The notes below the pieces were generated by a model. It was not told where the DNA came from and made no database searches. It was given only the letters and a program-made list of their open reading frames with translations. A stretch of DNA of 64,000 nucleotides from Saprospiraceae bacterium (GTDB taxonomy: Bacteria > Bacteroidota > Bacteroidia > Chitinophagales > Saprospiraceae), in the NCBI GenBank assembly GCA_020627785.1, contig JAHDGF010000002.1:1-64000 (forward strand). Direction: 5' to 3'. Shown here in pieces: positions 917 to 58,904 of this stretch (the first letter of the stretch is position 1; each line of letters starts with the position of its first letter). A program made the translations under genes and the position numbers.

Positions 917-2062
917 CTATGCAGTCCTTGCCAAGGTCGCTTTTCCTGCTCTTGCTACTTCAGCATTTGGCTTAGATAAGATTTTCAACATTTCATAATG
1001 CTTTCGCAAAGCTGTTAGGAAGCGTTTGTTTTCTTGATATACAATTTGATGATCATCACAAGTCTCTTTCAAAATATCTGTTAGAGCCGAATAGTGTACA
1101 TGACAGACCTTAGGGAAAAGGTGATGAATGACGTGAATATTTATTCCTCCCATCAACCAAGTTCCAAGTTTACTATGTCTACAAAAGTCTGCTGTCGTTT
1201 CTAAAACGTGAAGTGCATAATTGTTTTCAATATTTCCTTTTTCATCTGGCAAAGGATAAGTTGTTCCCTCATACACATGCGTCACTTGAAACATTAATGC
1301 AAATGTAAGACCAGGTAAAAAGTGCATAAAAATCCAACACATAAATATGAAGCCTGCAGATTGAGGCAAGAAAATCATTGGTAGGATAAATCCTGTACCA
1401 TAATAAAAAGCCTTCCCTATAAAGAGTATAACATACTCCTTAAGCGGGTGCTTAATGTTTTTCTGATTTCCAATATTACTTTCAACAAAAAACCATTTGA
1501 AATCTTTGATTGTCACCCAGTGCAACATAGCCAACGCATAGAGCCCGAAAGTGTAAAAATGTTGCCATTTGTGTTTTGGTAACCAAGGCTCATCTGGGGA
1601 AAACCTAAACTGCCCATGAGTCTCTAAGGTTACATCGATTCCATGAATATTAACGTAACCATGATGTGCTCCATGCATTCTCCGGAATAGGTATTGATTC
1701 CCTCCAACAAAATCCATAGAATAACTCCAAAATTGATTAACCTTTTGATTTTCAGAATAGGCATCATGGGTTGCATCGTGCATGATGTTAAAGGCAATAA
1801 AAATAATCACAAAGCCCCAAGCGAAATAAGTCAAAAATAAACCCAGATTGCCTAAAGTCCCGGACATTATCAGTCCAAAACACGCAAGCCACATAACTAT
1901 TGCTAGAGCAGTCTTAATATACATTTCCATATTGGCATATGGAGAGATCTCATTTGTCTTAAAGTATTCATTCACTCTACTCCTCAGATCTCGTATAAAG
2001 TCATCTTTTAGTGGTGTACTTTTAAATTTGACTCTCTTGTCGGAAGTCATACGATTCAGCAT
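917..2062 (-). CDS. Fatty acid desaturase (linoleoyl-CoA/acyl-lipid desaturase type)
   Basis: A 381-residue integral membrane di-iron desaturase that introduces a cis double bond into fatty acyl chains. All three histidine boxes are present: HDATH at 95-99, HGAHH at 130-134 and HVIHH at 310-314. Hydrophobic pairs at about 50-95 and 210-260 match the usual four-helix layout. The pattern fits the DesA/linoleoyl-CoA desaturase branch common in Bacteroidota. There is no cytochrome b5 domain, so an external electron donor is needed. Regiospecificity (delta-5, -6 or other) cannot be read from the sequence. The ATG at 2062 was kept; a second Met lies 4 codons in. Confidence 0.9.
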   Translation of the reverse strand: MLNRMTSDKRVKFKSTPLKDDFIRDLRSRVNEYFKTNEISPYANMEMYIKTALAIVMWLACFGLIMSGTLGNLGLFLTYFAWGFVIIFIAFNIMHDATHDAYSENQKVNQFWSYSMDFVGGNQYLFRRMHGAHHGYVNIHGIDVTLETHGQFRFSPDEPWLPKHKWQHFYTFGLYALAMLHWVTIKDFKWFFVESNIGNQKNIKHPLKEYVILFIGKAFYYGTGFILPMIFLPQSAGFIFMCWIFMHFLPGLTFALMFQVTHVYEGTTYPLPDEKGNIENNYALHVLETTADFCRHSKLGTWLMGGINIHVIHHLFPKVCHVHYSALTDILKETCDDHQIVYQENKRFLTALRKHYEMLKILSKPNAEVARAGKATLARTA

Positions 2063-2124
2063 AATACTTCTATTAGATTTAGGTGCAAATTATTACAATT
2101 TCACTAGTCTTTAGACTCGGATTG

Positions 2125-2132
2125 CAAAAATA
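2125..2132 (-). promoter_or_regulatory. Candidate -7 element (TAnnTTTG) for the desaturase
   Basis: Reads TATTTTTG on the minus strand, 63 nt upstream of the desaturase start, so the 5' leader would be about 55 nt. No good TTTG -33 box is seen at 19-20 nt, so support is partial. Confidence 0.3.
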
Positions 2133-2186
2133 ACTAAATATTAAATTCGGATTTATATCTATATTAATCCTTTAACATACAACCGC

Positions 2187-3857
2187 ATGAAGATTATTAT
2201 TATTGAATCCTTTTTTTTGTTCGCTTTCGCAAATATTTATGCACAAAATAATACGGTAGGCGTCCTTCAAAGTAGCCCTGATTCCTACTTAGGTTATACC
2301 TTTTTCTCTCCATTTAACAGCACAAACGCTTACATGGTTGATAATTGCGGAAGATTGGTGAACCAATGGAATAGAGGTACACGACCTGGCTTATCTGCCT
2401 ATTTTCTAGACAATGGGCTGATGCTAAGAACCTATAAAATTGATCCAATTGGTCCATTCACTTCTGCAAGTAATGCTGGGGGTCTAGAACTGGTAGATTG
2501 GGATAATAATGTAGTTTGGTTTTATGAATTAAATGATGATCAATCTCTTTCTCATCATGATGTAGTAATGATGCCCAATGGTAACCTTCTAGTCCTTACT
2601 TGGGAACTAACCTATACAGATGAATTGGTCGAACTTGGCAGAGACCCAAATGAAATATTTTCAGCAGGTTTTATGTGGTCTGAGAAAATTCTAGAAATCA
2701 GACCGATTGGAAGTAATGAAATGGAGATTGTATGGCAATGGGAAATCAAGGACCATTACATACAAGACTTTGATGATACTAAATTAAACTTTGGAGTTGT
2801 GTCAGAACACCCAGAGCTTTTTGACATCAATCTACCGGAATTAAACAGTAATAATAGCAACTCAACTAGAGATTGGAATCACTTTAATGCGATTGACTAT
2901 AATCCCGAATTAGATCAGATTTTAATAAGTACGAGAAATTCAGACGAAATCTGGATCATTGATCATTCAACAACCATTAATGAAGCGGCTGGCCATACTG
3001 GTGGAACATATGGAAAAGGGGGAGACATTCTCTATAGATGGGGAAATGCCAATGCCTATGATCGAGCCACGGTTGCCTCACAAAAGTTATTTGGACAGCA
3101 CGGTGTGAACTGGATTACTGAAGGAGAAGATACAGGGAGCATTATGATTTATAACAATGGAAATGGAAGGCCAGGTACTGATTTTTCTACTGCGGAAGTT
3201 TTACTTCCACCACAGTCTGATCCTGGATTTTATATTATGCCAGATGAAGACCCCATAGGACCGGAAAACCCTGAATGGATCTATGACGGCGACACCAATG
3301 GGCCTTTTTATTCCCCCTTTCTTTCCAACGCACAGCGTCTACCAAACGAAAATACCTTTATAAACGCTGGTTCAATAGGACACATTTATGAAGTAAATAT
3401 GGATGATGAGATTGTTTGGGAATATATCATTCCTCTCAGTGGTAATAGTCCAGTTCCACAAGGATCAAATGCCAATAACAATTCTACCTTCCGCGCATAT
3501 AAATATGGTCTTGACTATCCTGGATTTAATGGAATAAATCTCGTCGCTACAGAAACACTCGAACCGAATAATAACCCTGATCCTTGTGATTTGGTGTCGA
3601 CAGAAGACATAGATGTTGACCTTTTGAATATAAATCACATCTATGATGGTAACTTAAAGAATCTAAACATTTACTATCAAGGTTTTTATTCATTATCTCT
3701 GCATGTCTTCGATATTCATGGGCGGATGTTTTTACAAAGTGAATTAAGCCAAGGCGAAAATAATATTGACTTATCTGGACTTGAAAAATCAATGTACGTC
3801 TTTACGGTAAGTACAGATTCAAAAATTATTAAAACGGAAAAACTTATCATCCACTAA
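2187..3857 (+). CDS. Secreted arylsulfotransferase-family protein with T9SS sorting domain
   Basis: A 556-residue protein with a Sec signal peptide (about 1-19, ending IYAQ). The central region has repeating propeller-like blades: GGLELVDWDNNVVWFYEL, LSHHDVVMMPNGNLLVL near 120-138, ILISTRNSDEIWIID near 250 and GDILYRWGN. This is the pattern of the arylsulfate sulfotransferase (ASST) family, with His-rich catalytic motifs. The last ~75 residues (LSLHVFDIHGRMFLQSEL... YVFTVSTDSKIIKTEKLIIH) form a T9SS type A sorting domain, so export to the surface is expected. Substrate unknown; many Bacteroidota ASST-like proteins have no proven activity. It leads a run with comF starting 3 nt after its stop. 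Confidence 0.8.
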   Translation: MKIIIIESFFLFAFANIYAQNNTVGVLQSSPDSYLGYTFFSPFNSTNAYMVDNCGRLVNQWNRGTRPGLSAYFLDNGLMLRTYKIDPIGPFTSASNAGGLELVDWDNNVVWFYELNDDQSLSHHDVVMMPNGNLLVLTWELTYTDELVELGRDPNEIFSAGFMWSEKILEIRPIGSNEMEIVWQWEIKDHYIQDFDDTKLNFGVVSEHPELFDINLPELNSNNSNSTRDWNHFNAIDYNPELDQILISTRNSDEIWIIDHSTTINEAAGHTGGTYGKGGDILYRWGNANAYDRATVASQKLFGQHGVNWITEGEDTGSIMIYNNGNGRPGTDFSTAEVLLPPQSDPGFYIMPDEDPIGPENPEWIYDGDTNGPFYSPFLSNAQRLPNENTFINAGSIGHIYEVNMDDEIVWEYIIPLSGNSPVPQGSNANNNSTFRAYKYGLDYPGFNGINLVATETLEPNNNPDPCDLVSTEDIDVDLLNINHIYDGNLKNLNIYYQGFYSLSLHVFDIHGRMFLQSELSQGENNIDLSGLEKSMYVFTVSTDSKIIKTEKLIIH

Positions 3858-3860
3858 AAA

Positions 3861-5065: not shown

Positions 5066-6204
5066 AACTTACAGTACTTAACATAACAGAGGAAGGAAGA
5101 GGAGGAGGACCACTCAAGCGAATTATTGATGTCGCGTCAGAATTAAAAGATACTGACATCAACTCAGTGGCTCTTTTCCCTAAAGATAACTCCGAAGGTT
5201 TCGAGCAAGAATTAGCTGTCGCAAAAATACCCTACCGAAAAATTAAATTACATCGACTTACAAAAGAAAAAAAATCTCTACTCGCTTACCTATTTACATT
5301 TATCCCAGAAATTATTGCACTAAAAAAAGTCATTAAAAAATCTCAAACAGACATTGTTTTATGCAACGGTTCTTGGCAAATAAAAGGTGTTCTGGCAGCC
5401 AAATTTGCGAAAGCGAAAAGCATCTGGATTCAAAACGATACGCAACAAGGAACTATGGTCAGAATGTTGTTTAAATTAGTTGCCAACATCCCTGACGCTT
5501 ATGTGTATGTGTCCAATCGTACCAAAGAATATTACGAGGCAATCAATCCAAAAATAAAAACCAAACCATCGGTTGTGATACAGTCTCCGGTCAACATGAA
5601 TAAATTTTCACCTAGGAATGGAAAAGGACTTTTGCCCGATGCTACATTCAAGGTTCTTTCCGTTGGCTATATCAATTCCAACAAGGGATTTGATACTTTG
5701 GCTCGAGCCATTAATCTGGTGAATCAAAAAACCAAGAAGGATGTACAATTCTACATAGCCGGACCAGCTTTTGATAGTCAACAAGAATATTACAACATGT
5801 TGTTGAACATCAAGAAAGAGAATAACATAAACAATCTTCACTTTTTGGGCATGAGAAAAGATATCGACCAACTCTTAAATGAGGTTGATTTATATGTTTG
5901 TAGTTCTGACTTCGAAGCCAGTCCAATCTCAATTTGGGAAGCATTAGCCTCCGGTCTCCCAGTCGTTTCTACAGATGTAGGCGATGTTAAAGAAATAATT
6001 GAGCAGAATGATTGTGGTATAGTCGTTCCTTGCAAAAATCCTTCAGAATTAGCAGGAGCTATCCTACAAATGTTAAAAGACCGTGATTATCTGGAAAAAT
6101 GTAGGAAAAACAGCCGCGAAACCGCTATTTCCAATTTTTCAATGGATTCTACAGCCAGTAAATACCGGGAATTCTACCATCAAATCGCTAAATCTTCCAC
6201 TTAA
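5062..6204 (+). CDS. Glycosyltransferase family 4
   Basis: A 380-residue GT-B fold glycosyltransferase. The N-terminal Rossmann domain starts with LNITEEGRGGGPLKRI (acceptor-side glycine loop). The C-terminal domain has FKVLSVGYINSNKG and the donor-binding E-x7-E motif EASPISIWE at about 284-292, followed by ASGLPVVSTD. It transfers a sugar from an NDP-sugar to a glycan or lipid-linked acceptor at the inner membrane face. Start is GTG at 5062, overlapping the previous stop (GTGA). It lies 61 nt before the main glycan operon, which has its own promoter. Confidence 0.88.
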   Translation: MKLTVLNITEEGRGGGPLKRIIDVASELKDTDINSVALFPKDNSEGFEQELAVAKIPYRKIKLHRLTKEKKSLLAYLFTFIPEIIALKKVIKKSQTDIVLCNGSWQIKGVLAAKFAKAKSIWIQNDTQQGTMVRMLFKLVANIPDAYVYVSNRTKEYYEAINPKIKTKPSVVIQSPVNMNKFSPRNGKGLLPDATFKVLSVGYINSNKGFDTLARAINLVNQKTKKDVQFYIAGPAFDSQQEYYNMLLNIKKENNINNLHFLGMRKDIDQLLNEVDLYVCSSDFEASPISIWEALASGLPVVSTDVGDVKEIIEQNDCGIVVPCKNPSELAGAILQMLKDRDYLEKCRKNSRETAISNFSMDSTASKYREFYHQIAKSST

Positions 6205-6210
6205 CCAGAA

Positions 6211-6241: not shown

Positions 6242-6265
6242 TAATAAGATATACTTACACAGAAT

Positions 6266-11935: not shown

Positions 11936-13013
11936 AATATTACATATTGTCGGAAATAGACCGCATTTAATAAAGCTTGCACCAGTTTCTAGAGCTATTA
12001 AAAAAGAAACTCAACTAAAACAATTAATCGTTCACACCGGTCAACATTATGATGAAATGATGTCTGATCATTTTATAAAACAATTAGGACTACCTACCCC
12101 CTCATACAATCTTGAAATTGGGTCAAGTGGTGCCTTACGGCAAATGGGGACGACATTGATAAAACTAGAGGACATTTTAAAAATAGAAATTCCTGATCTA
12201 ATTTTAGTTTATGGCGACACCAACTCAACCGCTGCTGGAGCAATCGCCGCTGCTAAATCAAACATTCCGCTGGGCCATGTAGAGTCGGGTTTGCGGGAAT
12301 TTGATAAACAGATTCCAGAAGAAGTAAATAAACTTATTACAGATTCTGTAACGGATCTCTTTTTTGTGCCAACGCATACTGGCATCATGAACTTAAAAAA
12401 CGAAGGAAAAGAAAATCACGTTTTCCATACTGGAGATGTTGGGCTTGACCTTGTTTTTCAAAGTGAAAAAGAAATACAACTTGCTGAGTCAATTCTTGGT
12501 CAAAATAATTTAGAGAAGAACAGCTACATATTAATGACCTGTCATCGAGCAAATAACACCGCAAGCAAAGATAAATTGCAAGCGATTTTAGAAGCTGCCA
12601 ATGAACTAAATCAAAAAATATTTTTTCCCATTCATCCGAGAACAGCTAATGCAATTGAAGCATATAATTTAGGGCATCTCATTAGTAATGTGAATTGGAT
12701 TGTTCATGAGCCTATTGGATTCTTTGAAACGCAAGCTCTGATAAAGAATGCAAGATTCTGTCTTACAGACTCTGGAGGGATTATAAAAGAATCATATTTT
12801 CATGAAACTCCCGCAATCATTACGGACGTCCAGACTGAATGGTTAGAAACCATAGAAGAAGGATGGTGTCATGTAGCCGGACCCAACAAACATAAAATAC
12901 TTGAGCTAGCTAAAACCATTAAACCAGGTATAAAAGGGAAGAAATCATTAGGAGATGGACGTGCTTCAAATAAAATCGTAGAAATAATTGTAAATTTCCT
13001 CTCTACAAAATAA
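11925..13013 (+). CDS. wecB: UDP-N-acetylglucosamine 2-epimerase (non-hydrolysing type)
   Basis: Interconverts UDP-GlcNAc and UDP-ManNAc, or a related UDP-HexNAc pair. The 362-residue sequence keeps the residues that matter in WecB: Asp98 in VYGDTNST, Glu120 in HVESGLR, Glu132/133 in PEEVNK and His207 in TCHRANN. The opening loop is GNRPHLIK rather than the usual GTRPEAIK, so it is a divergent member and a variant substrate is possible. SGGIIKES near 283 corresponds to the SGG(I/L)QEE nucleotide-binding loop. Followed after 3 nt by the deacetylase gene, which suggests a linked amino-sugar pathway. Confidence 0.85.
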   Translation: MSYKILHIVGNRPHLIKLAPVSRAIKKETQLKQLIVHTGQHYDEMMSDHFIKQLGLPTPSYNLEIGSSGALRQMGTTLIKLEDILKIEIPDLILVYGDTNSTAAGAIAAAKSNIPLGHVESGLREFDKQIPEEVNKLITDSVTDLFFVPTHTGIMNLKNEGKENHVFHTGDVGLDLVFQSEKEIQLAESILGQNNLEKNSYILMTCHRANNTASKDKLQAILEAANELNQKIFFPIHPRTANAIEAYNLGHLISNVNWIVHEPIGFFETQALIKNARFCLTDSGGIIKESYFHETPAIITDVQTEWLETIEEGWCHVAGPNKHKILELAKTIKPGIKGKKSLGDGRASNKIVEIIVNFLSTK

Positions 13014-13652: not shown

Positions 13653-14395
13653 ATAATTCTGTAGCAATACATCAACCCAATTACTTACCGTGGTTGGGAT
13701 ATTTTTATAAAATTTACTTAGTCAATCATTTTATTTTTCATGACAATGTTGATTTAAACCAACGTTCGTACACCAAGCGTACGCTTGTCAGAAAAGAAAG
13801 AATGAAAGAAGATACACAATGGCTGATCATACCTATTGAAAAATCTAATAATAAAAAAATTACTGCTGCCAAGATAACAGATGGAAACAAAGCAATTGGT
13901 AAACATTTGAGGAAACTCAAATACATCTATAAAGAATCTGAATTTTTTCAAGAATGCTTCCCCTTTATTGAAAATTTACTTTGGGTAACTGTTAAAGAAA
14001 GAAACAAATTAGCAGACTTTAATATTAATTGTTTAGAATCCATAAGTCATGAGTTAGGATTAAATACCAAGTTCTCGAGATCTAGTGAATATAATTTAGA
14101 AGGCTACAAAAGCAACTTAAACATGCAGCTAATCAAAACAGTAAGTGGCTCCATATATATATCTGGGACTGGTGCTAAAAAATATCAAGAAGAAAAGCTT
14201 TTCCAAGAAAACAATATCAACTTAATTTACTCAAATGTAAATGAATACTTAAAGTCAAACCCATATGCGCAAGGACATGAGCCTAGTCTCATGGGTCTTA
14301 GTATTATCGATGCTTGGATGAACTTAGGTAAAGTAGGCATACTAAAGCTATTCGAAAAAATGTTGAATAATCTAAAAGAAAAATCCTCGCAATGA
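13640..14395 (+). CDS. WbqC-like family protein
   Basis: A 251-residue protein whose N-terminus AIHQPNYLPWLGYFYKI (9-25) followed by FHDNVDLNQRSYTKRTLV is the hallmark of the WbqC-like family from O-antigen and capsule clusters. The biochemical role of the family is not firmly known to me; association with modified amino sugars has been proposed from genome context. The ATG is inside the deacetylase gene (13-nt overlap) and the stop overlaps the next start (ATGA), so all three are probably translated as a unit. Confidence 0.85.
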   Translation: MDYLNNSVAIHQPNYLPWLGYFYKIYLVNHFIFHDNVDLNQRSYTKRTLVRKERMKEDTQWLIIPIEKSNNKKITAAKITDGNKAIGKHLRKLKYIYKESEFFQECFPFIENLLWVTVKERNKLADFNINCLESISHELGLNTKFSRSSEYNLEGYKSNLNMQLIKTVSGSIYISGTGAKKYQEEKLFQENNINLIYSNVNEYLKSNPYAQGHEPSLMGLSIIDAWMNLGKVGILKLFEKMLNNLKEKSSQ

Positions 14396-16408: not shown

Positions 16409-18825
16409 TACCAAGTATAATTTACTGACAATATAAAATTTCTTCCAGCTCCACTTACCCCTGAGGCAAAAGGTCGATAGTGTTGGTCTAATATATTTTC
16501 AACAGATCCTTTAATCCTCCATCGTTCGGTTATCTGATAGCTGCTATATAAATTTAAAGTCTGCCATGCTGGAGTACCAATATCCAAAGCATGTTCGGGA
16601 TTATCTGCAGAGCCACCATACTCCTCTATTGGTTTGAATCCATTGTAAAGCAGATTTAAACTTCCCTCCCATTTATTTTTAGCATATCTCACTTCTGCTT
16701 TTCCATACAAAGGTGGAATGTGATCAAGAGGTTGTTCTACGTTATCACTTCCAATAGAATTTCCTTTGGTGTAATTAATAGAGCCCTCCACAGAAAGAGC
16801 TTCATTAAATTTATATTCAGCTAAAGCCGAAAAACCAAAAACTGTTCCTTGCTTATCATTGACATTGGCCGTTACTTGTAAAGTGTCTTGGTCAATAATA
16901 TACATGGGTGAACCATCTGGCAATGTAAAATCTCGACGAACAATGATGTCGTTTATTTGGCTATAGAACCCAGAAACACCAAAAGACATTTTCTTGGTAT
17001 TGTAGGCGAGATTCAACTCAAAGTTTAAAACTTTTTCTGGATTCAATTCTGTATTCGGCACAGTAATCTCATCCGCTTGTACACGCACCTTTGCTAGATC
17101 ATCAACATTGGGCGCTCTGAAAGAAGTACCAGCTAATAATTTAACTTCCCAAGGCTTAGCATTTAAGTTTAGCCCTGTCATCCAAACCAATGAACTATTG
17201 GAATTATTAATATTACTATAATAGAACGTTGGCCAAGCTATCGGGTCGCTTTGAGAAAAACTAAAGTTTGTACTTTGATTTGAGGCTCTAAGTCCTACAT
17301 TCCATAGTAATAAATCTGGGATTAAATCCATTCTTACATTACCATATATTCCAGACTGATGAAGATTACTGCCATTGCTTGGATACCTAGTCAATGTAGG
17401 TCTTCTTTCTTGACGAAAGATAAATTCCTCTGCGAATGAATCCAAAATGTTTAAATAATATGATCCACCGTATTCTAAATTTATTCTAGGAGTTACTGCC
17501 TTTTTAAAATCCAAATTAGAACCAAAAATATTTAGATCTTCAAATTGACCAGTAAACCATTCAGATCCGAAATTTCTAGAAAATCTTGATTCATCAATTC
17601 GTTGATAAGAAAGATTAAACAAGGCTTGATCAAATAATTTTGTCGTCTTAGTTATTTCAATATTAGGGCTAATTAAAGCTCTTACTTGCGGTCCATAATA
17701 CCACTCAGCAAATCTTGGTAAAGAGTCTCTAACCTCCGTTAAAAAGTCATAACGAGGAATATTGGTAGAGTTACTGTACTGAATGTTTAATCCCAGATTT
17801 ACTCCTGGCTTTACTTTATATATCACCTTCTGCAAAAAATCAAATTGACCATAACCTGTACCTAATTGTAAATTTGGATCACTATTAGTTCTGACAATAT
17901 CTTCTCCATTATTTCTAGGTTCGACATAAAACGGCCTTTGGCCCCAAGTTGGATATTCGGATGAGCGTCTACTACCAGTCCGTAAATCTGAAAATCCAGA
18001 AATTGAAACACTTGTAAGACCTGCAAGATTTTTACCGTTAGAATAACTTAGGTGGCTATGTATTCTCCTTTCCAAATTTGCGGAAGCGAATCGAAAATCA
18101 AAAACACCTTCATCTGATTCAGCATCAATGATAGGATTCATGGTTCTAAAGTGAATGACACCGCCTAATGCATCACTTCCATACAATAAGGAACCTGGAC
18201 CAAATATTAATTCTGCTCGATTTAAAACTGCAGGATCAATGGTAATGGCATTCTGTAAATGACCACCTCGATAAATGGCATTGTTCATTCGTACACCATC
18301 TACAACAAGTAATATTTTATTAGCTTCAAAACCTCTTATAACTGGACTTCCTCCGCCCATTTGAGATTTTTGAACATAGACGTTTCCACTTTTAGCTAAA
18401 GCATCCGCTGAGGTCTGAGATTCTGATCGAGCAATTTCCTTTGATGAAATACTTTCGATCCTAAAAGGCATTTCTTCGGCTCGACTATTTGTTCTTCCGA
18501 CTACAATAATTTCTTCAAGCAATTCATCGGATGAAATTAATTGTACGATAAAATTGGTTTCTGTTAACTCTTCCAGAGTAAGCGACAGATCATTGAAGCC
18601 GAGATATGAAAATAAAATGGTTTTAAATTGTTGTCCATTTAAGTCAACTTTCCCATCACCATCTGTAGATAATTTTGGGGTTCCATCAATAGATATGTTG
18701 ACACCTGGTAATCCCTGGTTACTCTCATCTACGACTTGTATCGCTTGCGCAAATGTGTTATTCTGAATTAAAAACAAAAATATACTAAGCCTTAGGCATG
18801 CGTATAGCAAAGGTAGTCCCCTCAT
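16408..18825 (-). CDS. TonB-dependent outer-membrane receptor (hemoglobin/transferrin-type)
   Basis: An 805-residue receptor. It has a signal peptide (1-27), a carboxypeptidase-D-like regulatory beta domain (about 28-105), then a plug with SPVIRGFEANKILLVVDGVRMNNAIYRGGHLQNAITID and GPGSLLYGSDALGGVIHF. The plug wording matches the TonB-dependent hemoglobin/transferrin/lactoferrin receptor family. The remaining ~570 residues form the beta-barrel and end in NYTW, the aromatic C-terminus needed for Bam insertion. A haem or metal ligand is plausible but unproven. The ATG lies 41 nt inside the histidine kinase gene, implying co-transcription. Confidence 0.9.
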   Translation of the reverse strand: MRGLPLLYACLRLSIFLFLIQNNTFAQAIQVVDESNQGLPGVNISIDGTPKLSTDGDGKVDLNGQQFKTILFSYLGFNDLSLTLEELTETNFIVQLISSDELLEEIIVVGRTNSRAEEMPFRIESISSKEIARSESQTSADALAKSGNVYVQKSQMGGGSPVIRGFEANKILLVVDGVRMNNAIYRGGHLQNAITIDPAVLNRAELIFGPGSLLYGSDALGGVIHFRTMNPIIDAESDEGVFDFRFASANLERRIHSHLSYSNGKNLAGLTSVSISGFSDLRTGSRRSSEYPTWGQRPFYVEPRNNGEDIVRTNSDPNLQLGTGYGQFDFLQKVIYKVKPGVNLGLNIQYSNSTNIPRYDFLTEVRDSLPRFAEWYYGPQVRALISPNIEITKTTKLFDQALFNLSYQRIDESRFSRNFGSEWFTGQFEDLNIFGSNLDFKKAVTPRINLEYGGSYYLNILDSFAEEFIFRQERRPTLTRYPSNGSNLHQSGIYGNVRMDLIPDLLLWNVGLRASNQSTNFSFSQSDPIAWPTFYYSNINNSNSSLVWMTGLNLNAKPWEVKLLAGTSFRAPNVDDLAKVRVQADEITVPNTELNPEKVLNFELNLAYNTKKMSFGVSGFYSQINDIIVRRDFTLPDGSPMYIIDQDTLQVTANVNDKQGTVFGFSALAEYKFNEALSVEGSINYTKGNSIGSDNVEQPLDHIPPLYGKAEVRYAKNKWEGSLNLLYNGFKPIEEYGGSADNPEHALDIGTPAWQTLNLYSSYQITERWRIKGSVENILDQHYRPFASGVSGAGRNFILSVNYTW

Positions 18826-26797: not shown

Positions 26798-26839
26798 TGC
26801 TTGTATTCTTTCAGCCTTTCGGCAAATTTATTCAACAGT

Positions 26840-38406: not shown

Positions 38407-38407
38407 A

Positions 38408-40864: not shown

Positions 40865-43328
40865 CAAATTTACCTTGAGCAATTTCAATACCACCTGCAT
40901 CTATTACTTTGATAAAGTAAACACCATTCGCTAAATCTGAGACATCAACGTTATTAGATTTGTCGCTTATTTCAATCATTTTTTGACCGCTCAAGGCAAA
41001 TATTGAAATCGATCTATAATCAATCTGTTCTTCAAAGGTTAAACTCAATCTATCGGACACAGGATTAGGACTAAGTTTAAGGTTTAATGAAACATTTAAA
41101 TCTTCGGTACTAGTTACTTCAGGAACATTATAATAATACAACGATCTCCCATAAGTTGCTGCCAATAGTTTTCCATCTCTTTCAAGATCAATATCAGTCA
41201 CAGGAACATTTGGTAAGCCCCTTCCTAAAATCTCCCAGTTCGATCCATTGTTGTTTGTATAAAATACACCTATGTCTGTAGCAACATAAAGTAAAGAATT
41301 ATCATTTAAATCAACTTGAATATCATTTACAGGAATGTCTGGTAAATTACCCGTTATGTCAACCCAGCTTTGTCCTTGATCTTCTGTTTTATAGACATGC
41401 CCATCATTGCTATCGTATCTGAATCCTGAGAAAGTTGCATAAGCAATCTGATCATCTACTGGATCAGGTAACACTGAAGTTGTCCACCTGTTAGTTGTCA
41501 TTCCCGGGTCAACTTGTAGCCAATTATTTCCACCATCCAAAGTATTCCAGACATGACCATCGTCAGTCCCTGCATAAACAATATTTGAATTAGCTCTTGA
41601 TACTTCAACAGTTGTTACGGTCCCAAAAGTTCTGTTCCCATCATAAGGACCATCTGTTAAGTCTGGACTTATCGGTACTACAGTTTCTCCTCTATCCATT
41701 GATCTCAATATTCTCTGTGACCCTACATAAATTGTAGCTGGGTTATTATAATCTATAGCAATTGGTGTATTCCAATTAAATCGATCCTCCTCACTAAATT
41801 GAAAGCTGAAATAATTAGAAGTAGAAAGATCAACTCTAAAGACATTCCCATTTTGAAACTCACAATATACGATTTCACTATTGCCAGGTTCAACAACGGA
41901 TCGAAAACCATCTCCCCCCAATATATTAAACCAAGACACCACTGCTCCACTCCAATTTGCAGCAGTACCGTTGTCTTGCATTCCTCCATAAATTCTCTCG
42001 GTATTATTTGGATCTATTTCACAGGCATAGAATTGATTGTTTGGTAATCCATTTGATTTCTCATTGGTTAAGCCACCATCTTGGCTCACGTAAATGCCAC
42101 CATCATTTCCATTAATTATTAAATTAGGATTTTCAGGGTGGATAAATAATGCATGATGATCCACATGTACAAATTCAAAAATTTGGTCCCAGTTCTGTGA
42201 AACTGGATTAAATCGACGCATATTTAAACTTGCTAAATAAACATCTTCTTCATTCTCAGGATGCACAAATAATTTACTAAACCACCATTGAAAACTTACA
42301 CCATCAATTCCTGTTATTGGAATTGATGCCCATGTTTCACCTAGATCTTCTGACACATACACCCCTTCCGTAAATCCTATTTGGTCTGCAACAAAAGCAT
42401 ATATTTTATTCGGATTACTAGGAGCAATTGCTAGAGCCATTCTTCCTTTTGAAACAGCTAAGGTAGGCAGACCTCCTCCCAATAGTTCCCAGTTGTCACC
42501 ACCGTCCATACTTCGATAAATGCCACTCGTTTCTCCACCATAAACAATGTTATTAGTTCTTCTACTACGCTCCCACATGGCTGCAAAAATAATGTCAGAG
42601 TTATCAGGGTGAATGGCTAGGTCAATGCCTCCTGTTGAGTCTGAAACAAAAAGTACTTGCTCCCAAGAATTTCCTCCATCTATGGTCCGGTATATTCCGC
42701 GCTCTTCATTTTGACCAAACAGTCTACCCATCGCTGCGACGAAAACTTTGTTCTCATCACTGGGGTCAACTGCCACTTTACCAATGCTTCCTACTTCATC
42801 AAGACCTATATGTTCCCAAGAGTTTCCTCGATCAATTGACTTAAAGACACCCAAGCCATCATAAGCTAGTGAGCCACCTCCACTATTCGCTTCACCAGTA
42901 CCTACATAAACATGATCTGGATTACTTTTTGATATGTCTATATCACCAATGGAAAGACTTGGTTGATCATCAAATATCGGTTCCCAAGTTACTCCTTGAT
43001 CTAAGGAACGAAAAATCCCTCCTGAGGCAGATCCAGCCAAAATAGTGTTTTGATCATCAAGCCACATTTCAATGTCTGTAATTCTTCCACCGATATTTGT
43101 AGGACCCACAAAGTTCCATTCCTTATCAAACATTCTAGATTCAGACAAAAGTTTCTGACGTTCTTTTACCGCTTTGACATAAGCCTTTTTATTTATTTTC
43201 CCATATGGAAAGGCGCGTTGCTGAAAAAACCAATCTGAAGGAGGTTCTTTTTGTACATATGTTTTAGTAGAATCACATGATTGAATAGCAACAGTGAATA
43301 TTAAACCAATCAAAAAGGCATATCGCAT
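40854..43328 (-). CDS. Sortilin/BNR-repeat beta-propeller protein with T9SS sorting domain
   Basis: An 824-residue protein made almost wholly of propeller blades with Asp-box signatures (for example SLDQGVTWEPIF, SIDRGNSWEHIG, TIDGGNSWEQVL, SMDGGDNWELLG, SEDLGETWASIP, TEDQGQSWVDIT). This is the VPS10/sortilin-like glycosidase-related fold. The C-terminus (LNLKLSPNPVSDRLSLTF... NGVYFIKVIDAGGIEIAQGKFVKQ) is a T9SS type A domain. The N-terminal signal ends AIQSCDS, a possible lipobox, an odd combination with T9SS export. Role unknown: adhesion, peptide binding or hydrolysis. It lies 36 nt after galK on the same strand. Confidence 0.85.
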   Translation of the reverse strand: MRYAFLIGLIFTVAIQSCDSTKTYVQKEPPSDWFFQQRAFPYGKINKKAYVKAVKERQKLLSESRMFDKEWNFVGPTNIGGRITDIEMWLDDQNTILAGSASGGIFRSLDQGVTWEPIFDDQPSLSIGDIDISKSNPDHVYVGTGEANSGGGSLAYDGLGVFKSIDRGNSWEHIGLDEVGSIGKVAVDPSDENKVFVAAMGRLFGQNEERGIYRTIDGGNSWEQVLFVSDSTGGIDLAIHPDNSDIIFAAMWERSRRTNNIVYGGETSGIYRSMDGGDNWELLGGGLPTLAVSKGRMALAIAPSNPNKIYAFVADQIGFTEGVYVSEDLGETWASIPITGIDGVSFQWWFSKLFVHPENEEDVYLASLNMRRFNPVSQNWDQIFEFVHVDHHALFIHPENPNLIINGNDGGIYVSQDGGLTNEKSNGLPNNQFYACEIDPNNTERIYGGMQDNGTAANWSGAVVSWFNILGGDGFRSVVEPGNSEIVYCEFQNGNVFRVDLSTSNYFSFQFSEEDRFNWNTPIAIDYNNPATIYVGSQRILRSMDRGETVVPISPDLTDGPYDGNRTFGTVTTVEVSRANSNIVYAGTDDGHVWNTLDGGNNWLQVDPGMTTNRWTTSVLPDPVDDQIAYATFSGFRYDSNDGHVYKTEDQGQSWVDITGNLPDIPVNDIQVDLNDNSLLYVATDIGVFYTNNNGSNWEILGRGLPNVPVTDIDLERDGKLLAATYGRSLYYYNVPEVTSTEDLNVSLNLKLSPNPVSDRLSLTFEEQIDYRSISIFALSGQKMIEISDKSNNVDVSDLANGVYFIKVIDAGGIEIAQGKFVKQ

Positions 43329-45866: not shown

Positions 45867-48596
45867 CTACTTATCCTTTTTTACGTCGTCGATGGCATCA
45901 TTTAAATCGTCGGTCGCTTTTTTCAATTCATCGACAGAATCTTTCTTTTTGGTTTTCTTTTTCTCAACCTTAGGTTTTTGCTTCGAATCTGAAGGTGTTT
46001 CAGAAAATGTAAATCCCTTGGCATCTGTTCCAACATAAATTTTATCACCAGGACCAAATACTCCCGCAAGTAACTCTTTTGATATTGGATTTATCAACTC
46101 GTTCTGAATTACTCTTTTTAAAGGTCTTGCCCCAAACTGTGGTTCATAACCTAGATCAGCTAAAAGATCTAACGCAGAATCCGTAAGTTCTAAACTCATT
46201 TCTTGTTTGCCGAGATTCTTTGTTAGCTTTCGCAAAAGTAGTTTTCCGATTTTCTTAATCTCTTCTTTACTCAACGGCAAGAACATTATCTTATCGTCAA
46301 TCCTATTTAAAAACTCTGGACGAAGTTGTTCTTTCAATAAATCAAATACTTCCAACCTAGTCGTTTCAATAATATCTGCTTTATGAGCATCACCCAGTGC
46401 ATCAAGATCTTCAAAGTTTTCCAATATGGTTTCTGCGCCCATATTAGAGGTCATGATAATGATGGTGTTTTTAAAGTTAGCTTCTCGGCCTTTATTATCG
46501 GTCAATCGGCCATCATCTAAAACTTGCAATAAGATATTAAAGGTATCAGGGTGTGCTTTTTCAATCTCATCCAATAAAACAATAGAATAAGGTCTTCTTC
46601 TTACTGCTTCTGTCAACTGTCCTCCTTCATCATATCCTACATATCCTGGAGGCGCTCCGACAAGCCTACTTACAGAATGTTTCTCTTGATATTCACTCAT
46701 ATCAATTCTAGTAATGGCATTTTTATCATCAAATAAAACCTCTGCTAAGATTTTAGCAAGCTCTGTTTTACCAACTCCTGTAGGACCAAGAAAAATAAAT
46801 GAACCTATCGGTCGGTTAGGATCTCCAAGGCCAGCTCGACTTCTTCTAATGGCATCAGAAACTGCAACTACGGCTTCATGTTGGCCAATTAATCCTTTTC
46901 CTATTTCCGCTTCTAAGTTGAGTAGACGATCCTTGTCACTCTTCATCATTTTTGTTACCGGAATTCCCGTCCATCTTGCAACCACTCCTGCAATATCGTC
47001 TCGAGTTACTTCTTCATTTGTAAATCGTGTTTCTTCAGGTAAATCAGCCAATTTCTTTTCAGCTTCTTTAAGTTCATTTTCTTTAACCTTTAAATCACCA
47101 TATCTAATCTTAGCTACCAATTCAAAATCACTATCTCTTTCTGCTACTTCAGCCGCATGCTCAAGATCTTCAATTTGCTTTTTGATGTTTTGCATATGAT
47201 CAACAATCTTCTTCTCTCCCATCCATGAAGCTTTGATAGAATCAAAACGTTCTCTTGCATTGGCAATTTGCTCATTGATCATTTTTAGCTTCTTAGGATT
47301 GTCTTCTCTTTTAATCGCCTCTCGTTCAATCTCTAATTGACGTAATTTCCGATCAATCTCATCTACCTCCTCAGGCACAGAATCTAATTCTAATCGCATC
47401 TTTGCAGCTGCCTCATCTATCAGATCTATGGCCTTATCCGGCAAAGCTCGGTCTGTGATGTACCGATGCGACAATTCAGCTGCGGCTACAAGTGCTTCAT
47501 CCAGAATGTCAATCTTGTGGTAAACTTCATACTTATCTTGAATTCCTCTCAGAATTGAGATGGTATCCTCAACGCTAGGTTCATCGATATATACTGTTTG
47601 AAATCTTCGAACTAAGGCCTTATCACTTTCAAAGTACTTTTGGTATTCATCAAGAGTTGTTGCACCAATGGTTCTAATCTCACCTCTAGCCAATGCAGGC
47701 TTTAAAATGTTAGCAGCATCCATGGCACCATTACCTCCCCCAGCACCGATTAGGGTATGGATTTCATCTATGAATAATATCACCTCACCATTCGATGTAT
47801 TTACTTCTTTTATTACTGCCTTCAATCGCTCTTCAAATTCCCCCTTATACTTTGCCCCAGCAATCAATGAAGCCATGTCTAAAACAAAGATTTGCTTCGT
47901 TTGCAAATTCTCTGGAACATCTTTATTCACAATTCTCCAAGCAATACCCTCGATGATTGCTGTTTTTCCTACCCCTGCTTCTCCAACAAGAATTGGATTA
48001 TTTTTCTTACGTCTTGACAGTATGTGTAGAATTCTTCTAATCTCCTCGTCACGACCTACAATAGGATCTAATTTTCCTTCCTCTGCTCTTTCATTTAAGT
48101 TAATGGCAAACTTGCTAAGGGAGTTGTATTGATCGTCCGTATGCTGATCGCTCACTTTTCTACCTTTCCTGAGTTCATTAATTGCTGTGGTTAAGGCCTT
48201 AGAGGTGGCTCCCATATCCTTTAAGATTCTTGCCGTGGCATCTGTTCCGGATAAGATTCCTAATATGATTAATTCGAGAGAAATATATTCATCACCAAAT
48301 TCTTTCAACAATTTTTTGGCCTTGGCTAGAGCTTTATTAGAGTCATTGGTCAGAAATTGTTTCTCTGCCCCTTTCACCTTTGGTGTTCTCGCTATTTGCG
48401 TTTGGAGTTTATCAATCAATGGTTTTAGAGAGATATCCATTTTTTCAAATAGAAAGCCTGTTAACTTATCATCCACTTCGATAATGGCCCTTAAAAGGTG
48501 AGCTGCATCTACCTGTTGTTGATCTAAAGCACCAGCCATTTGCTGAGCCTTAAGTATTGCTTCTTGTGATTTTATAGTAAAATTATCGTACGTCAT
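45867..48596 (-). CDS. clpB: ATP-dependent disaggregase ClpB
   Basis: A 909-residue AAA+ chaperone that, with DnaK, resolubilises aggregated protein. Clp N-domain (1-145); NBD1 with Walker A GEAGVGKT (205-212) and Walker B VILFIDEIH; coiled-coil M domain (about 405-525); NBD2 with Walker A GPTGVGKT (604-611) and arginine-finger region; D2 small domain ending near 865. The final ~44 residues are a Lys/Asp-rich tail (KVEKKKTKKK... DDLNDAIDDVKKDK) absent from ordinary ClpB. No ClpP-binding IGF loop is seen. It has its own promoter at 48642-48673. Confidence 0.96.
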   Translation of the reverse strand: MTYDNFTIKSQEAILKAQQMAGALDQQQVDAAHLLRAIIEVDDKLTGFLFEKMDISLKPLIDKLQTQIARTPKVKGAEKQFLTNDSNKALAKAKKLLKEFGDEYISLELIILGILSGTDATARILKDMGATSKALTTAINELRKGRKVSDQHTDDQYNSLSKFAINLNERAEEGKLDPIVGRDEEIRRILHILSRRKKNNPILVGEAGVGKTAIIEGIAWRIVNKDVPENLQTKQIFVLDMASLIAGAKYKGEFEERLKAVIKEVNTSNGEVILFIDEIHTLIGAGGGNGAMDAANILKPALARGEIRTIGATTLDEYQKYFESDKALVRRFQTVYIDEPSVEDTISILRGIQDKYEVYHKIDILDEALVAAAELSHRYITDRALPDKAIDLIDEAAAKMRLELDSVPEEVDEIDRKLRQLEIEREAIKREDNPKKLKMINEQIANARERFDSIKASWMGEKKIVDHMQNIKKQIEDLEHAAEVAERDSDFELVAKIRYGDLKVKENELKEAEKKLADLPEETRFTNEEVTRDDIAGVVARWTGIPVTKMMKSDKDRLLNLEAEIGKGLIGQHEAVVAVSDAIRRSRAGLGDPNRPIGSFIFLGPTGVGKTELAKILAEVLFDDKNAITRIDMSEYQEKHSVSRLVGAPPGYVGYDEGGQLTEAVRRRPYSIVLLDEIEKAHPDTFNILLQVLDDGRLTDNKGREANFKNTIIIMTSNMGAETILENFEDLDALGDAHKADIIETTRLEVFDLLKEQLRPEFLNRIDDKIMFLPLSKEEIKKIGKLLLRKLTKNLGKQEMSLELTDSALDLLADLGYEPQFGARPLKRVIQNELINPISKELLAGVFGPGDKIYVGTDAKGFTFSETPSDSKQKPKVEKKKTKKKDSVDELKKATDDLNDAIDDVKKDK

Positions 48597-53154: not shown

Positions 53155-53307
53155 CCACTGAAAAACAATAACTTAACACACATATTGTCATTATTTTACT
53201 TATAGAATTTAACCCTTGTTTAACCCTATAAAAGTTATTCTTAACGCTTGAAGGTTCATTTCCACTAGAAAATGAAAAAGTGTACTTTGGTATTCTAATT
53301 AATTCAA

Positions 53308-54804: not shown

Positions 54805-54833
54805 GCTTAGCCCTAATTTTAGGCTGCCTTTTT

Positions 54834-55898
54834 ATGATGCTTAATGGCGTCATTGCCCAGTCATTTACAAGTAGTGTGGCTTCGGGCGACATTATCAGAC
54901 ATAGAAGTTTTCTGAGCTACAATCAACCTCCACAAATATGGGGATTAGAAATTCAACTAAATCAAAAACAAGATACCCTAAACTCCTGGAAACAATTTTG
55001 GGGACATCCACAATTAAGTCACCATCTCCACTATTTTAACTTCAACAATAAAGAAGAACTAGGTTCTGTTATTGCATACTTTCCAACATTAAAGTTTGAT
55101 ATTTTTAGATTTCAAAACTTCATTTTTTCCTATCGGATGGGAACTGGTTTATCCTTTTTCAATCGACCCTATGAAGTAGAATCAAATCCTACGAATAACG
55201 CCATTGGTTCAAATTTTAATATGATAATTTCTGCTTCATTTGAAGGCATGTATCATTTTAGTAATAGAGTTTCTATTTTTATTTCTCCACAGTTTTATCA
55301 CTATTCAAATGCCTCTTCAAAAATTCCTAACCTTGGGATTAATACCATAAATTTTAGGATAGGGCTACAGTATTCTATGAATGAATCAAGTGGATTATTT
55401 TATAAAAAAAGAAATAAAAATTTTCCAGCTAGAAAGTTTATTGGCCATGAAATAAATTTCGGATTAGGCTTTCGCCAAATTAATATTCCAAATGGCATCC
55501 TTTATAAAGTCCCACAATTAGCTTATCTAATTCATTACAATAGATCTGCATATTTTAGATTAGTTGGCGGCCTACAGTTTGAATATAATTATGCAGATTA
55601 CTATTTCTCAAGGCATCAAAAATTAGAAAGAAATATGGCTCAAAATTCGGCCAAAGACCTGAGCTTTAAATTGGCCAGCGATTTAATCTTTGGAAATATA
55701 TTCGTAAGATTTCAGCTCGGCGCTTACCTACCTGTGTTTGATAAAGAAATAGATGAACCTATCTCAAGTTTACTTGCCATAAATTATACAACAAAAACAG
55801 ACTTTTCAAACAAACGGAGTTGGTACGTTGGACTCGGAGTAAGGTCGCATAAGTTTGTGGCTCAATACCTTAGCATAAACACTGGTTTTATTCTTTAA
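54834..55898 (+). CDS. PagL-like outer-membrane acyloxyacyl hydrolase family protein
   Basis: At least 354 residues, predicted outer-membrane beta-barrel (alternating aromatic strands, final SINTGFIL). FYHYSNASSKIPNLGIN (154-170) matches the lipid A 3-O-deacylase PagL active-site segment, with His156 and Ser158; Asn170 stands where PagL has its triad Glu. From ATG 54834 the signal peptide would be cut short (MMLNGVIAQ). The frame stays open upstream to 54741 and encodes a proper signal (KIHRYRSLSLALILGCLF...), with only ATT 54774, ATC 54783 or ATA 54741 as starts. It likely overlaps the hutH end. Confidence 0.72.
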   Translation: MMLNGVIAQSFTSSVASGDIIRHRSFLSYNQPPQIWGLEIQLNQKQDTLNSWKQFWGHPQLSHHLHYFNFNNKEELGSVIAYFPTLKFDIFRFQNFIFSYRMGTGLSFFNRPYEVESNPTNNAIGSNFNMIISASFEGMYHFSNRVSIFISPQFYHYSNASSKIPNLGINTINFRIGLQYSMNESSGLFYKKRNKNFPARKFIGHEINFGLGFRQINIPNGILYKVPQLAYLIHYNRSAYFRLVGGLQFEYNYADYYFSRHQKLERNMAQNSAKDLSFKLASDLIFGNIFVRFQLGAYLPVFDKEIDEPISSLLAINYTTKTDFSNKRSWYVGLGVRSHKFVAQYLSINTGFIL

Positions 55899-57213: not shown

Positions 57214-57222
57214 TTATAATAT

Positions 57223-57861
57223 TCATGTCTGAATGTAAAAAATATACTTCTCTAAATAATATGGAATTTCTGTCCAATCACTAATCTTAAAATGCTCATA
57301 GTATTCAGCTATTTTCATTTCTTTTTTTAATTCCTCCAGGTCGCCCCCTTTTAACATAATCATTCCGTTAGAAATGGCATTATGATCTTTGTCCAAAATT
57401 CTGGGCCTACTCCATGTTAAAAGTTTTTCAACACTCGCGACCGCTCGACTAATAACAAAATCAAATTTTTCCTTCATCTCCTCAACCCTCTTGTGTTCCG
57501 CTTTTACGTTTTTTAACTCTAACAAATCGATGGCTTCATTAATAACCTTTATTTTTTTTGCGCGAGCATCCACCAAGTGAAATTCAACATCGGGAAAACA
57601 AATCGCCAAAGGCAAGCCTGGGAACCCGCCACCTGTGCCCAGATCTAAAATTTTGGAACCTGCTTTAAAGTTTATAAGTTTCATAATAAACAATGAGTGC
57701 AAGATGTGATGCGGTACTACTTGATCAATATCTTTTCTTGAAATCACATTTATTTTATCATTCCAAAAAGTGATATGATCACCAAATAAATTAAGCTTCT
57801 TAATTGTATCCGAGTCAAGATTTGGAAAATGTTTTAATATAATCTCTTGGTTATTTACCAT
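57223..57861 (-). CDS. rsmG: 16S rRNA (guanine527-N7)-methyltransferase
   Basis: A 212-residue S-adenosylmethionine-dependent enzyme that methylates G527 of 16S rRNA. NVISRKDIDQVVPHHILHSL, the SAM loop KILDLGTGGGFPGLPLAI (about 66-85), VEFHLVDARAKKIKV and FDFVISRAVASVEKLLTW are family-specific blocks. It overlaps the preceding GT2 gene by 7 nt. Loss of this methylation gives low-level streptomycin resistance in other bacteria. Confidence 0.95.
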   Translation of the reverse strand: MVNNQEIILKHFPNLDSDTIKKLNLFGDHITFWNDKINVISRKDIDQVVPHHILHSLFIMKLINFKAGSKILDLGTGGGFPGLPLAICFPDVEFHLVDARAKKIKVINEAIDLLELKNVKAEHKRVEEMKEKFDFVISRAVASVEKLLTWSRPRILDKDHNAISNGMIMLKGGDLEELKKEMKIAEYYEHFKISDWTEIPYYLEKYIFYIQT

Positions 57862-58904
57862 TTCTTTCTTTTAGGTAATAGCATGAATAGAGAAAAAAAT
57901 AAAAAATAAATGGCAGTTAAAGGATCCAAAAATATCCAATAACGAGATAGGTCTCCTCCATCTAATTTTTTAAATAATTTAATACAAGGGACAAGAGTAA
58001 GTAAAAATCTAAGAAGAAATAAACTTAGTCCTTGCCAAATATGACCAGAGTAAATGAGGTAAAAAATAACGCCAAATAAACCAACCCAAGAAGCACTGAA
58101 AATACTAAGAGCTATTTTATCCTTTAATTTATAGTACCAAGATGTAGAATGGTGCCTTCTTTTTTGCTTTATATAAGCCCCCCAATTTTTTACCGGAGCA
58201 GAATATGCCCAAGATTCTGGATGAATATTAATGGTTACATTTTCTGAGGTCGCTAATTTATTTATCACTAAGTCATCATCACCCCCAGGTATGTTAAGAT
58301 GCTCTTTCAGTACTCTGCCATCTTCAACTAAAGCTTTTCGATATAGAATATTTCGGCCGACCCCCATATAGGGTGTTCCAATAATAGCAAATGATAAATA
58401 CTGAATACCAGTTAATATGGCCTCATATCTGATCCATTTATTCAAAAACCCTTTAGCTCTTTGATAAGGACTGAAGCCAAAGACGATGTCTTTATCTCCT
58501 ACGGCCAAAAGCATTTGTTCACTCCAGGTCTTAGGTACGCGGCAATCAGCATCTGTTAAAAGGATAAAATCTTCTGAAATATTTGATAATCCATCCATTA
58601 AGGCTTGCTTTTTACCTGGGATACTTTTTGTTGAATTCAAGTAATTTAATTGCTCACTATTGTTTGATAGATTTTCTAAATACTGCACGGTTTCATCAGT
58701 CGATTGATCATTAACAATTAAAATTTTAGGATCTCCATTTTGATTTAGTAGCTGAGGCGCTAATTTTTTCAAATTTTCTAAATCATTTTTGGCGCAAACC
58801 AAAATAGTAAGTGATTTATTTAGTTTATCCTCTAACATTTGCGAAAGCGGCCAATCAATAACCGCATTGAATAATCCATTCCAATAAACCGCCTGAACTA
58901 GCAA
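57855..58904 (-). CDS. Glycosyltransferase family 2, membrane-anchored
   Basis: A GT-A fold enzyme of at least 349 residues. KSLTILVCAKNDLENL, ILIVNDQSTDETVQYL and the metal motif LLTDADCRVP (about 114-123) define the nucleotide-sugar site. GGDDDLVINKLA and KQKRRHHSTSW (Q/RxxRW-like) suggest a processive or polyprenyl-linked subclass. Two to three C-terminal TM segments follow. The only standard start is TTG 58904, but the frame extends 10 codons upstream (IEIIYIGILFL), completing an N-terminal TM helix. The start may therefore be ATC 58934 or ATT 58928. Substrate unknown. Confidence 0.85.
   Translation of the reverse strand: MLVQAVYWNGLFNAVIDWPLSQMLEDKLNKSLTILVCAKNDLENLKKLAPQLLNQNGDPKILIVNDQSTDETVQYLENLSNNSEQLNYLNSTKSIPGKKQALMDGLSNISEDFILLTDADCRVPKTWSEQMLLAVGDKDIVFGFSPYQRAKGFLNKWIRYEAILTGIQYLSFAIIGTPYMGVGRNILYRKALVEDGRVLKEHLNIPGGDDDLVINKLATSENVTINIHPESWAYSAPVKNWGAYIKQKRRHHSTSWYYKLKDKIALSIFSASWVGLFGVIFYLIYSGHIWQGLSLFLLRFLLTLVPCIKLFKKLDGGDLSRYWIFLDPLTAIYFLFFSLFMLLPKRKKW

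Follow-up and report, generated by a model that had tools for sequence, protein, structure and literature searches.

In this study, we have explored a stretch of 64,000 nucleotides from a Saprospiraceae bacterium (positions 1 to 64,000 of contig JAHDGF010000002.1, assembly GCA_020627785.1; hereafter the window), in which the word TTTGCGRAAGC had been predicted, from the letters alone, to be over-represented and to hold a small hairpin. Our results show that a whole family of DNA mini-hairpins extends through the genome and that this word is one of its spellings; the members are made of a 5' T-run, a stem of 2-4 bp, a GNAA loop and the complementary stem. What is kept in this family is the fold more than the letters, and the sites occur on either strand and mostly within genes. 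Some uncultured bacteria, most likely members of the Saprospiraceae, carry hundreds to thousands of these tiny hairpins, in either orientation within their genes. The fold is well supported, and its function is not settled. The window comes from G000, a draft genome of 4.69 Mb in 81 contigs that is 90.6% complete and that T9SS sorting domains assign to the Bacteroidota, and it is compared below mainly with G030, which belongs to another genus of the Saprospiraceae and is the richest genome examined.

The eight exact copies predicted in the window are all present at their coordinates, and the expectation that chance would give well under one proved right, as 100 dinucleotide shuffles of the window gave 0.07 copies on average and never more than 1. 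When one mismatch at most is tolerated, the window holds 14 copies against 1.83 expected; the near copy that had been singled out exists, at 33467-33477, one base away from the place first given. In the whole of G000 the word occurs 476 times (256 on the plus strand, 220 on the minus strand) and its reversed form not once. The copies sit within unrelated genes, in either orientation and in different frames (peptides ALRKH, FAKAK, ICGSK, PLSQM and others), and neither protein sequence nor codon usage explains them. A codon-preserving shuffle, which the original prediction had named as a check, did not refute it: with synonymous codons permuted within each open reading frame (ORF), structural matches numbered 94 observed against 10.4 in 424 kb of G000 ORFs, and 297 against 16.2 in 251 kb of G030 ORFs. 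A mispaired control set gave 3 against 8.8 and 14 against 14.3, respectively (in these counts one loop may score as both a 2-bp and a 3-bp stem, in real and shuffled genes alike). The dinucleotide shuffles and the codon permutation together rule out composition or codon usage as the cause. From 464 kb of G000 we obtain the extended consensus CATTTGCGNAAGCG, with some eight to ten A-rich positions after it.

The detailed study of the stem offers the clearest view of what is kept. When all 256 two-base stem combinations around GNAA were ranked in 295 kb of G030, the five most enriched were complementary, as were 7 of the top nine. After TTT, in 636 kb of the same genome, stems with both pairs Watson-Crick numbered 584 against 83.5 expected (7.0-fold), among them GC..GC (214 vs 2.9), CC..GG (148 vs 3.3), AC..GT (36 vs 1.9), CT..AG (33 vs 3.1) and CG..CG (23 vs 1.2). 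The three mismatch classes without wobble stood at 1.08-, 0.98- and 1.23-fold, and the five wobble classes at 0.90- to 1.54-fold. In G000 alone, the GC stem accounts for 79 of the 2-bp sites and the next class for 4, and the 3-bp stems GCC/GGC (12 vs 0.03) and GAC/GTC (6 vs 0.04) are enriched right after TTT in 464 kb. The G000 dialect is seen again in 160 kb of G005, a congener of G000 (GC stem 15 vs 0.28, GCC 5 vs 0.01, GAC 3 vs 0.02). The hairpin core with a variable base at the second loop position has thus been borne out, and because the stem bases change in pairs in relatives, it is better supported than could be known from the window.

Other parts of the predicted structure had to be revised. 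The loop had been read as a GNRA tetraloop; a hairpin with a four-base G..A loop stands, but the GNRA assignment does not. In 636 kb of G030, GNAA with any N was found 421 times against 9.3 expected, GNCA was weak (20 vs 5.2) and GNGA was not enriched (3 vs 3.3); the corresponding numbers in G000 are 79 vs 0.7, 6 vs 0.4 and 1 vs 0.2, of which the second and third are too small for a judgement. The variable base takes all four letters, and the loop is therefore GNAA. The proposed pairing of the outer TTT with RAA was not upheld, the TTT being mainly a 5' flank rather than a conserved arm of the stem. T enrichment is 4-5 bases long in G030; G000 mostly has three Ts only, with an A before them and an A-rich tail on the 3' side. 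The comparison with a fixed HIP1-like word is not supported either, since the letters vary and the fold does not.

The orientation of the sites offers further insight. G000 has 49 sense and 61 antisense sites, and the opening 295 kb of G030 has 171 and 190, all counted with TTN, not TTT, before six complementary stems. In a larger sample of complete ORFs the counts were 70 and 79 in G000 and 340 and 467 in 1.006 Mb of G030, where the antisense lead is significant (p=9e-6) and the sense sites lean to gene starts (Kolmogorov-Smirnov p=0.0006), as if hairpins in mRNA were mildly avoided. No concentration of sites at gene ends was seen in the ORFs of G000 and G030. The loop preference and the lack of an mRNA-sense excess together point to single-stranded DNA rather than RNA.

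Neighbouring sites of G030, moreover, alternate between strands. Among 946 sites in 1.006 Mb of this genome, only 370 of the 923 neighbour pairs had an orientation in common (p=1.9e-9), and sites on the same strand were more evenly spaced than with permuted labels (coefficient of variation of the gaps 0.927 vs 1.001, P=0.0005). The effect persisted without the 46 pairs closer than 60 bp (357 of 877, p=4.1e-8), was present inside ORFs (153 of 384) as well as from one ORF to another (204 of 493), and ran in the same direction in all four distance classes (133/322, 80/206, 89/219 and, beyond 2 kb, 55/130, this last not significant alone at p=0.095). When gene strand was kept in the permutation, same-orientation pairs averaged 443 and never fell below 393, so that 0 of 1000 runs reached the observed 357, and 300 random 7-mers of like abundance in G030 had a same-orientation fraction of 0.534 +/- 0.024 (minimum 0.492). 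In 839 kb of G000 (186 sites), the data point the same way, though weakly, with same-strand gaps again more even (0.798 vs 0.901, P=0.0135). A duplex process would be indifferent to the strand of the next site and a process on single strands, with either strand open to use, would not, and alternation therefore points to single-strand handling. We regard it as the best clue to function, resting mainly on one genome, G030.

The trait is patchy in the Saprospiraceae. TTTGCGRAAGC occurs 491 times in G030 and 242, 182, 137, 14 and 6 times in congeners of G000 (two of them 67% and 77% complete), so that one genus spans 476 to 6 copies. Across 120 Saprospiraceae genomes, TTTSCGNAAGS was at least fourfold over its control in 14 (G000 included), two- to fourfold in 26 and less in 80, and most of 394 Bacteroidota genomes lie near the reversed control of TTTGCGNAAGC (completeness at least 80 for the 394; a floor of 85 for the 120-genome motif and ATPase surveys). 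G004, a motif-poor congener of G000, shows no enriched GC stem in 282 kb. Support for the fold in other genera comes from whole-genome counts of the CC..GG form and of a mispaired GC..GG form, made for each form in 28 genomes chosen by motif count. For CC..GG, the count over that of the reversed control was 885/23 in G030, 117/24 in G510, 106/34 in G538, 92/33 in G481, 46/4 in G502, 46/4 in G062, 48/10 in G002 and 11/19 in G000; the mispaired counts, in the same order, were 40/5, 10/8, 21/12, 18/22, 3/3, 2/1, 8/5 and 9/5. G000 therefore uses only the GC form and the 3-bp forms, and the motif-poor G004, G018 and G025 show no CC..GG excess. One further genome, G458, has 148 whole-genome matches against 12 in the control, but its structural signal is only weak (GC stem 13 vs 2.2 in 200 kb). 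In a pattern scan of the genome collection, many records outside the Bacteroidota were among the matches listed, and we take these for chance; the scan served only to point out relatives. Orthologue comparison is thin because congeners are about 71-75% identical.

The commonest core in G000 is the oligonucleotide d(GCGAAAGC), which belongs to a known type of DNA mini-hairpin (GNA or GNNA loop, at least two G-C pairs). Mini-hairpins of this type are described as extraordinarily stable and nuclease-resistant (PMC4686876), and GCGAAAGC itself is the DNA mini-hairpin of Hirao and colleagues, going by a title in the reference list of that paper (PMC4686876). There they appear as an aptamer tool (PMC4686876); here they are a genomic motif. 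Generic energy models give, for the 3-bp GCC stem, -2.3 kcal/mol as DNA and -3.4 kcal/mol as RNA; for 2-bp stems the values are close to zero (below), and such models do not capture the reported stability. GNA triloops are absent from the listed enriched loops for GC stems in G000 and G030, and on CC stems in G030 the GAA triloop occurs 3 times against 1.3 expected. Stability alone is thus disfavoured as what is kept, and a reader protein would be the simpler cause.

The DNA-level role proposed in the original prediction is supported by these data; as for which role it is (uptake, recombination or other), we can only infer it. Our tentative preference, to which we give somewhat less than an even chance, is a self-recognition signal read on single-stranded DNA, most likely at a step of natural transformation. 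ComEC would import one DNA strand; a protein at or after ComEC could then bind the T-run and hairpin and favour that strand for survival or recombination, and repeated replacement by hairpin-bearing strands would enrich sites on both strands. Each strand would need its own sites at intervals because either strand may be the one entering. The motif would work as an uptake signal does, but with a fold on one strand read instead of a duplex word. In the same phylum, Riemerella columbina is reported to prefer its own DNA: self DNA competes in its transformation, and at equal dose neither E. coli nor R. anatipestifer DNA does so (PMC7965970). The preference is reported there with no signal identified, and the candidate k-mers listed are A-rich words (PMC7965970). 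In broader terms, the hairpins may form a genome-wide identity code written as a fold, with single-stranded mini-hairpins spaced separately along each strand and a protein that uses them to recognise self among single strands that enter the cell or are being processed, a reading to which we likewise give somewhat less than an even chance.

A number of observations weigh against this proposal, or against the fold on which it stands. The evidence is genomic, and competence, uptake and the reader protein remain proposals. ComEC, found in 37 of 37 Saprospiraceae genomes (56 of 60 overall), is just as universal among relatives poor in the motif as among those rich in it. Strong matches to the type IV pilus/type II secretion ATPase, on which classical uptake depends (PF00437; best E-value no higher than 2e-121, from 14 first-look candidates scored in each genome), occur in 7 of 120 Saprospiraceae genomes and in 0 of 14 motif-rich ones; 22 of the 120 pass the cut-off, the marginal matches including the clpB of the window. 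Since none of the motif-rich genomes searched gave a strong match, the motif is unlikely to be an uptake signal of the classical pilus type. None of ComEC, this ATPase, the Y1 transposase and the nuclease domain PDDEXK_1 separates motif-rich from motif-poor genomes. With regard to the fold, some non-complementary stems also score high in G030 (CG..AA 53 vs 8.5, CG..AT 26 vs 5.2, CG..TT 17 vs 4.0), which we take to be the opposite strand of true sites, showing the same pattern. The mispaired GC..GG form exceeds its reversed control in G030 (40/5), G032 (25/3) and G540 (27/7), and the reversed control is therefore a loose background; with TT in front, this form occurs 8 times in 295 kb of G030, where a Markov model predicts 3.5. 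The generic models give the 2-bp hairpin just -0.5 kcal/mol as DNA for GC/GC (0 for CC/GG) and -0.1 as RNA for either stem. Sites in G030 lean antisense (467 vs 340), so that the mRNA strand is not neutral, and alternation in the G000 sample is not significant alone (same orientation in 80 of 177 pairs, P=0.094). Finally, genes that lack homologues in the sampled sequence are no poorer in sites, although recent arrivals should be: density per 10 kb is 9.1-10.5 across four gene classes in G030 and 1.5-3.1 in G000, with 1.9 in the no-homologue class. These classes are crude.

The main rival is a Chi-like role, which we consider unlikely. A helicase-nuclease of the AddAB/RecBCD type would meet the hairpin on the unwound strand and switch from degradation to recombination, and sites on each strand would serve breaks arriving from one side. 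Chi is likewise abundant and oriented, and it is read on a single strand of unwound DNA, so that strand-wise spacing and alternation are explained as well as by uptake. PDDEXK_1, a domain that occurs in AddA, AddB and RecB, was found in 36 of 36 genomes chosen by motif count; these comprised 20 motif-poor and 16 motif-rich genomes, however, in which it is equally common. The Chi sites known to us are fixed linear words, unlike a hairpin with an exchangeable stem. Sites in G000 lean to one GC-skew side (64 vs 44, p=0.067), but G030 shows no such bias (298 vs 297), and in short contigs of fragmented assemblies skew may be a poor guide to the replication strand. The span of 476 to 6 copies within one genus also speaks against a Chi-like site; this turnover, together with the self-preference reported in the phylum, is why we slightly prefer uptake. 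A priming or restart site appears improbable to us. A primase or other polymerase would recognise the hairpin on exposed single strands and start opposite the T-run, much as the promoters of phage N4 direct initiation on single-stranded templates through a T-run followed by a hairpin; this order and the 4-5 base T enrichment of G030 would fit. Lagging-strand priming should, however, bias the strand, which was not seen in G030, and the three Ts of most G000 sites, preceded by A and followed by an A-rich tail, fit it less well.

The remaining explanations fare worse. A site for a duplex-binding protein (a nucleoid or segregation factor), or a compositional by-product, is quite improbable: many genome-wide words are duplex sites, but arms that stay complementary across several accepted stems would serve such a protein no purpose, and neither would an orientation that alternates over kilobases, and the by-product is excluded by the shuffles and the codon permutation. 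At the RNA level, GNRA hairpins or terminators in transcripts are very unlikely and disfavoured by the strand data. GNAA is also a stable loop in RNA, and G030 does show a strand preference relative to genes, yet it runs against the sense strand; neither sample of ORFs shows a sense excess, and neither a general preference for purines at the third loop position (GNGA is not enriched, GNCA is) nor a sense preference was found in G030. The T-run precedes the hairpin, which is therefore unlike an intrinsic terminator, with its GC stem then T-run, at gene ends and in sense orientation. Strongly disfavoured, and the least probable of all, is a mobile mini-hairpin, that is, relics of repetitive extragenic palindromes (REP) and their transposases (RAYT), or of IS200/IS605, spread by a Y1 transposase. 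REP elements are short hairpins that also have a 5' guide beside the hairpin foot, and Y1_Tnp (PF01797) matches were found in G000 (3), G001 (1) and G030 (2). REPs are, however, longer, largely intergenic and in need of the Y1 transposase, which was not found in four motif-rich genomes (G002, G005, G016 and G032). Most copies here are intragenic and have no longer shared element around them. At the clpB site of the window, none of six aligned relatives has the motif; four differ by ungapped substitution and two are gapped.

In the DNA uptake sequences of Neisseriaceae (DUS) and the uptake signal sequences of Pasteurellaceae (USS), a fixed word is recognised in the duplex, and the type IV pilus machinery takes part. 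Like the mini-hairpins they are found in hundreds to thousands of copies, in both orientations and mostly within genes, and like them the G000 motif is a core with an A-rich flank. Uptake sequences also have an orientation preference in reading frames (PMC2346458), which the mini-hairpins of G030 share. The genome-wide excess in both orientations is thus common to both systems, as is ComEC, which does not discriminate; a single fixed core word was not found, nor, in the motif-rich genomes searched, a strong match to a pilus-type uptake motor. Unlike in DUS and USS, the fold is kept while the letters change, and neighbours alternate by strand in G030. HIP1 (GCGATCGC, in cyanobacteria) is another word over-represented genome-wide, with a debated function. 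It is a palindrome that has been discussed in relation to DNA methyltransferases (PMC4390886), unlike the asymmetric, structural mini-hairpin motif, which is no GCGATCGC-type palindrome.

To our knowledge, the DNA signals described so far across whole genomes (uptake sequences, Chi, HIP1) are words. The mini-hairpin motif is kept as a fold, its stem changing in pairs across genera, and it alternates between strands in the richest genome examined. If our proposal is right, it would represent a kind of genomic signal that secondary structure, and not sequence, defines. Were it to serve in uptake or recombination, it could account for the way in which Bacteroidota that lack a type IV pilus motor discriminate self from foreign DNA, and a 12-base oligonucleotide with its mispaired twin would give a direct handle on the reader protein. 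Literature searches among open-licence PMC papers on uptake sequences in Bacteroidetes, hairpin uptake signals, GNRA and DNA tetraloops, over-represented words and competence turned up no title or abstract opening that describes the motif.

The sites in the window are as follows. Loose-pattern matches at 23515-23527 and 54557-54569, whose stem classes have no shown enrichment in G000, were left out.
1000..1010, minus strand: TTTGCGAAAGC mini-hairpin, sense in a fatty acid desaturase gene (917-2062, minus).
2223..2233, minus strand: TTTGCGAAAGC with an A-rich 3' tail, antisense in the gene of a protein sorted by type IX secretion (2187-3857, plus).
5215..5225, minus strand: TTTGCGACAGC, variant with a GNCA loop, antisense in a glycosyltransferase gene (5062-6204, plus).
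5404..5414, plus strand: TTTGCGAAAGC, sense in the same glycosyltransferase gene (5062-6204, plus), read as FAKAK.
12132..12144, minus strand: TTTGCCGTAAGGC, 3-bp stem GCC/GGC, antisense in a UDP-GlcNAc 2-epimerase gene (11925-13013, plus).
13906..13918, plus strand: TTTGAGGAAACTC, 3-bp stem GAG/CTC, a doubtful member (class 2 vs 0.07 in 464 kb), in ORF 13640-14395 (plus).
18077..18087, plus strand: TTTGCGGAAGC, antisense in a TonB-dependent receptor gene (16408-18825, minus).
18743..18753, minus strand: TTTGCGCAAGC (N = C), sense in the same receptor gene (16408-18825, minus).
21294..21304, plus strand: TTTGCGGAAGC, sense in a DsbD-like gene (20643-23378, plus).
26814..26826, minus strand: TTTGCCGAAAGGC, 3-bp stem, outside the listed ORFs.
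31747..31757, plus strand: TTTGCGGAAGC, sense in a pyridine nucleotide-disulphide oxidoreductase gene (30831-32171, plus).
33467..33477, minus strand: ATTGCGAAAGC, the near copy, hairpin unbroken and one T of the T-run altered.
38324..38334, minus strand: TTTGCGTAAGC (N = T), antisense in a response-regulator gene (37714-38406, plus).
40989..41000, minus strand: TTTGCCTTGAGC, a variant with a pentaloop (839 kb of G000 hold 11 of this class, with 0.12 expected).
46226..46236, minus strand: TTTGCGAAAGC, sense in clpB (45867-48596, minus).
55467..55479, minus strand: TTTGGCGAAAGCC, 3-bp stem GGC/GCC, a doubtful member (stem enriched in G030, not listed for G000), in ORF 54834-55898 (plus).
58838..58848, plus strand: TTTGCGAAAGC, antisense in a family 2 glycosyltransferase gene (57855-58904, minus).

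The pentaloop class comprises TTTGC-CTTGA-GC (11 vs 0.12) and its CTCGA counterpart (6 vs 0.03) in G000, and CTTGA also appears in G005 (7 vs 0.02). Separate from the mini-hairpins, G030 holds a dispersed element ending in CTAAACAGTTAC, several copies of which follow GCCTAAAAACAGG-like sequence (for example in L052 near 18114, L055 near 1054 and L065 near 17608); AACAGTTA[CG] has 46 matches in 1.0 Mb of G030, 22 of them viewed, and the element is possibly an interspersed repeat family. Words of the CCAGCGG type in G000 (22 of 70 viewed) are in many cases part of a roughly 51-bp tandem repeat (L038) or a collagen-like repeat (L046), and therefore look like local repeats and not a dispersed signal. 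The palindrome AGCAATTGCT occurs four times in the window (35048, 42423, 45595 and 50952) against 0.13 expected.

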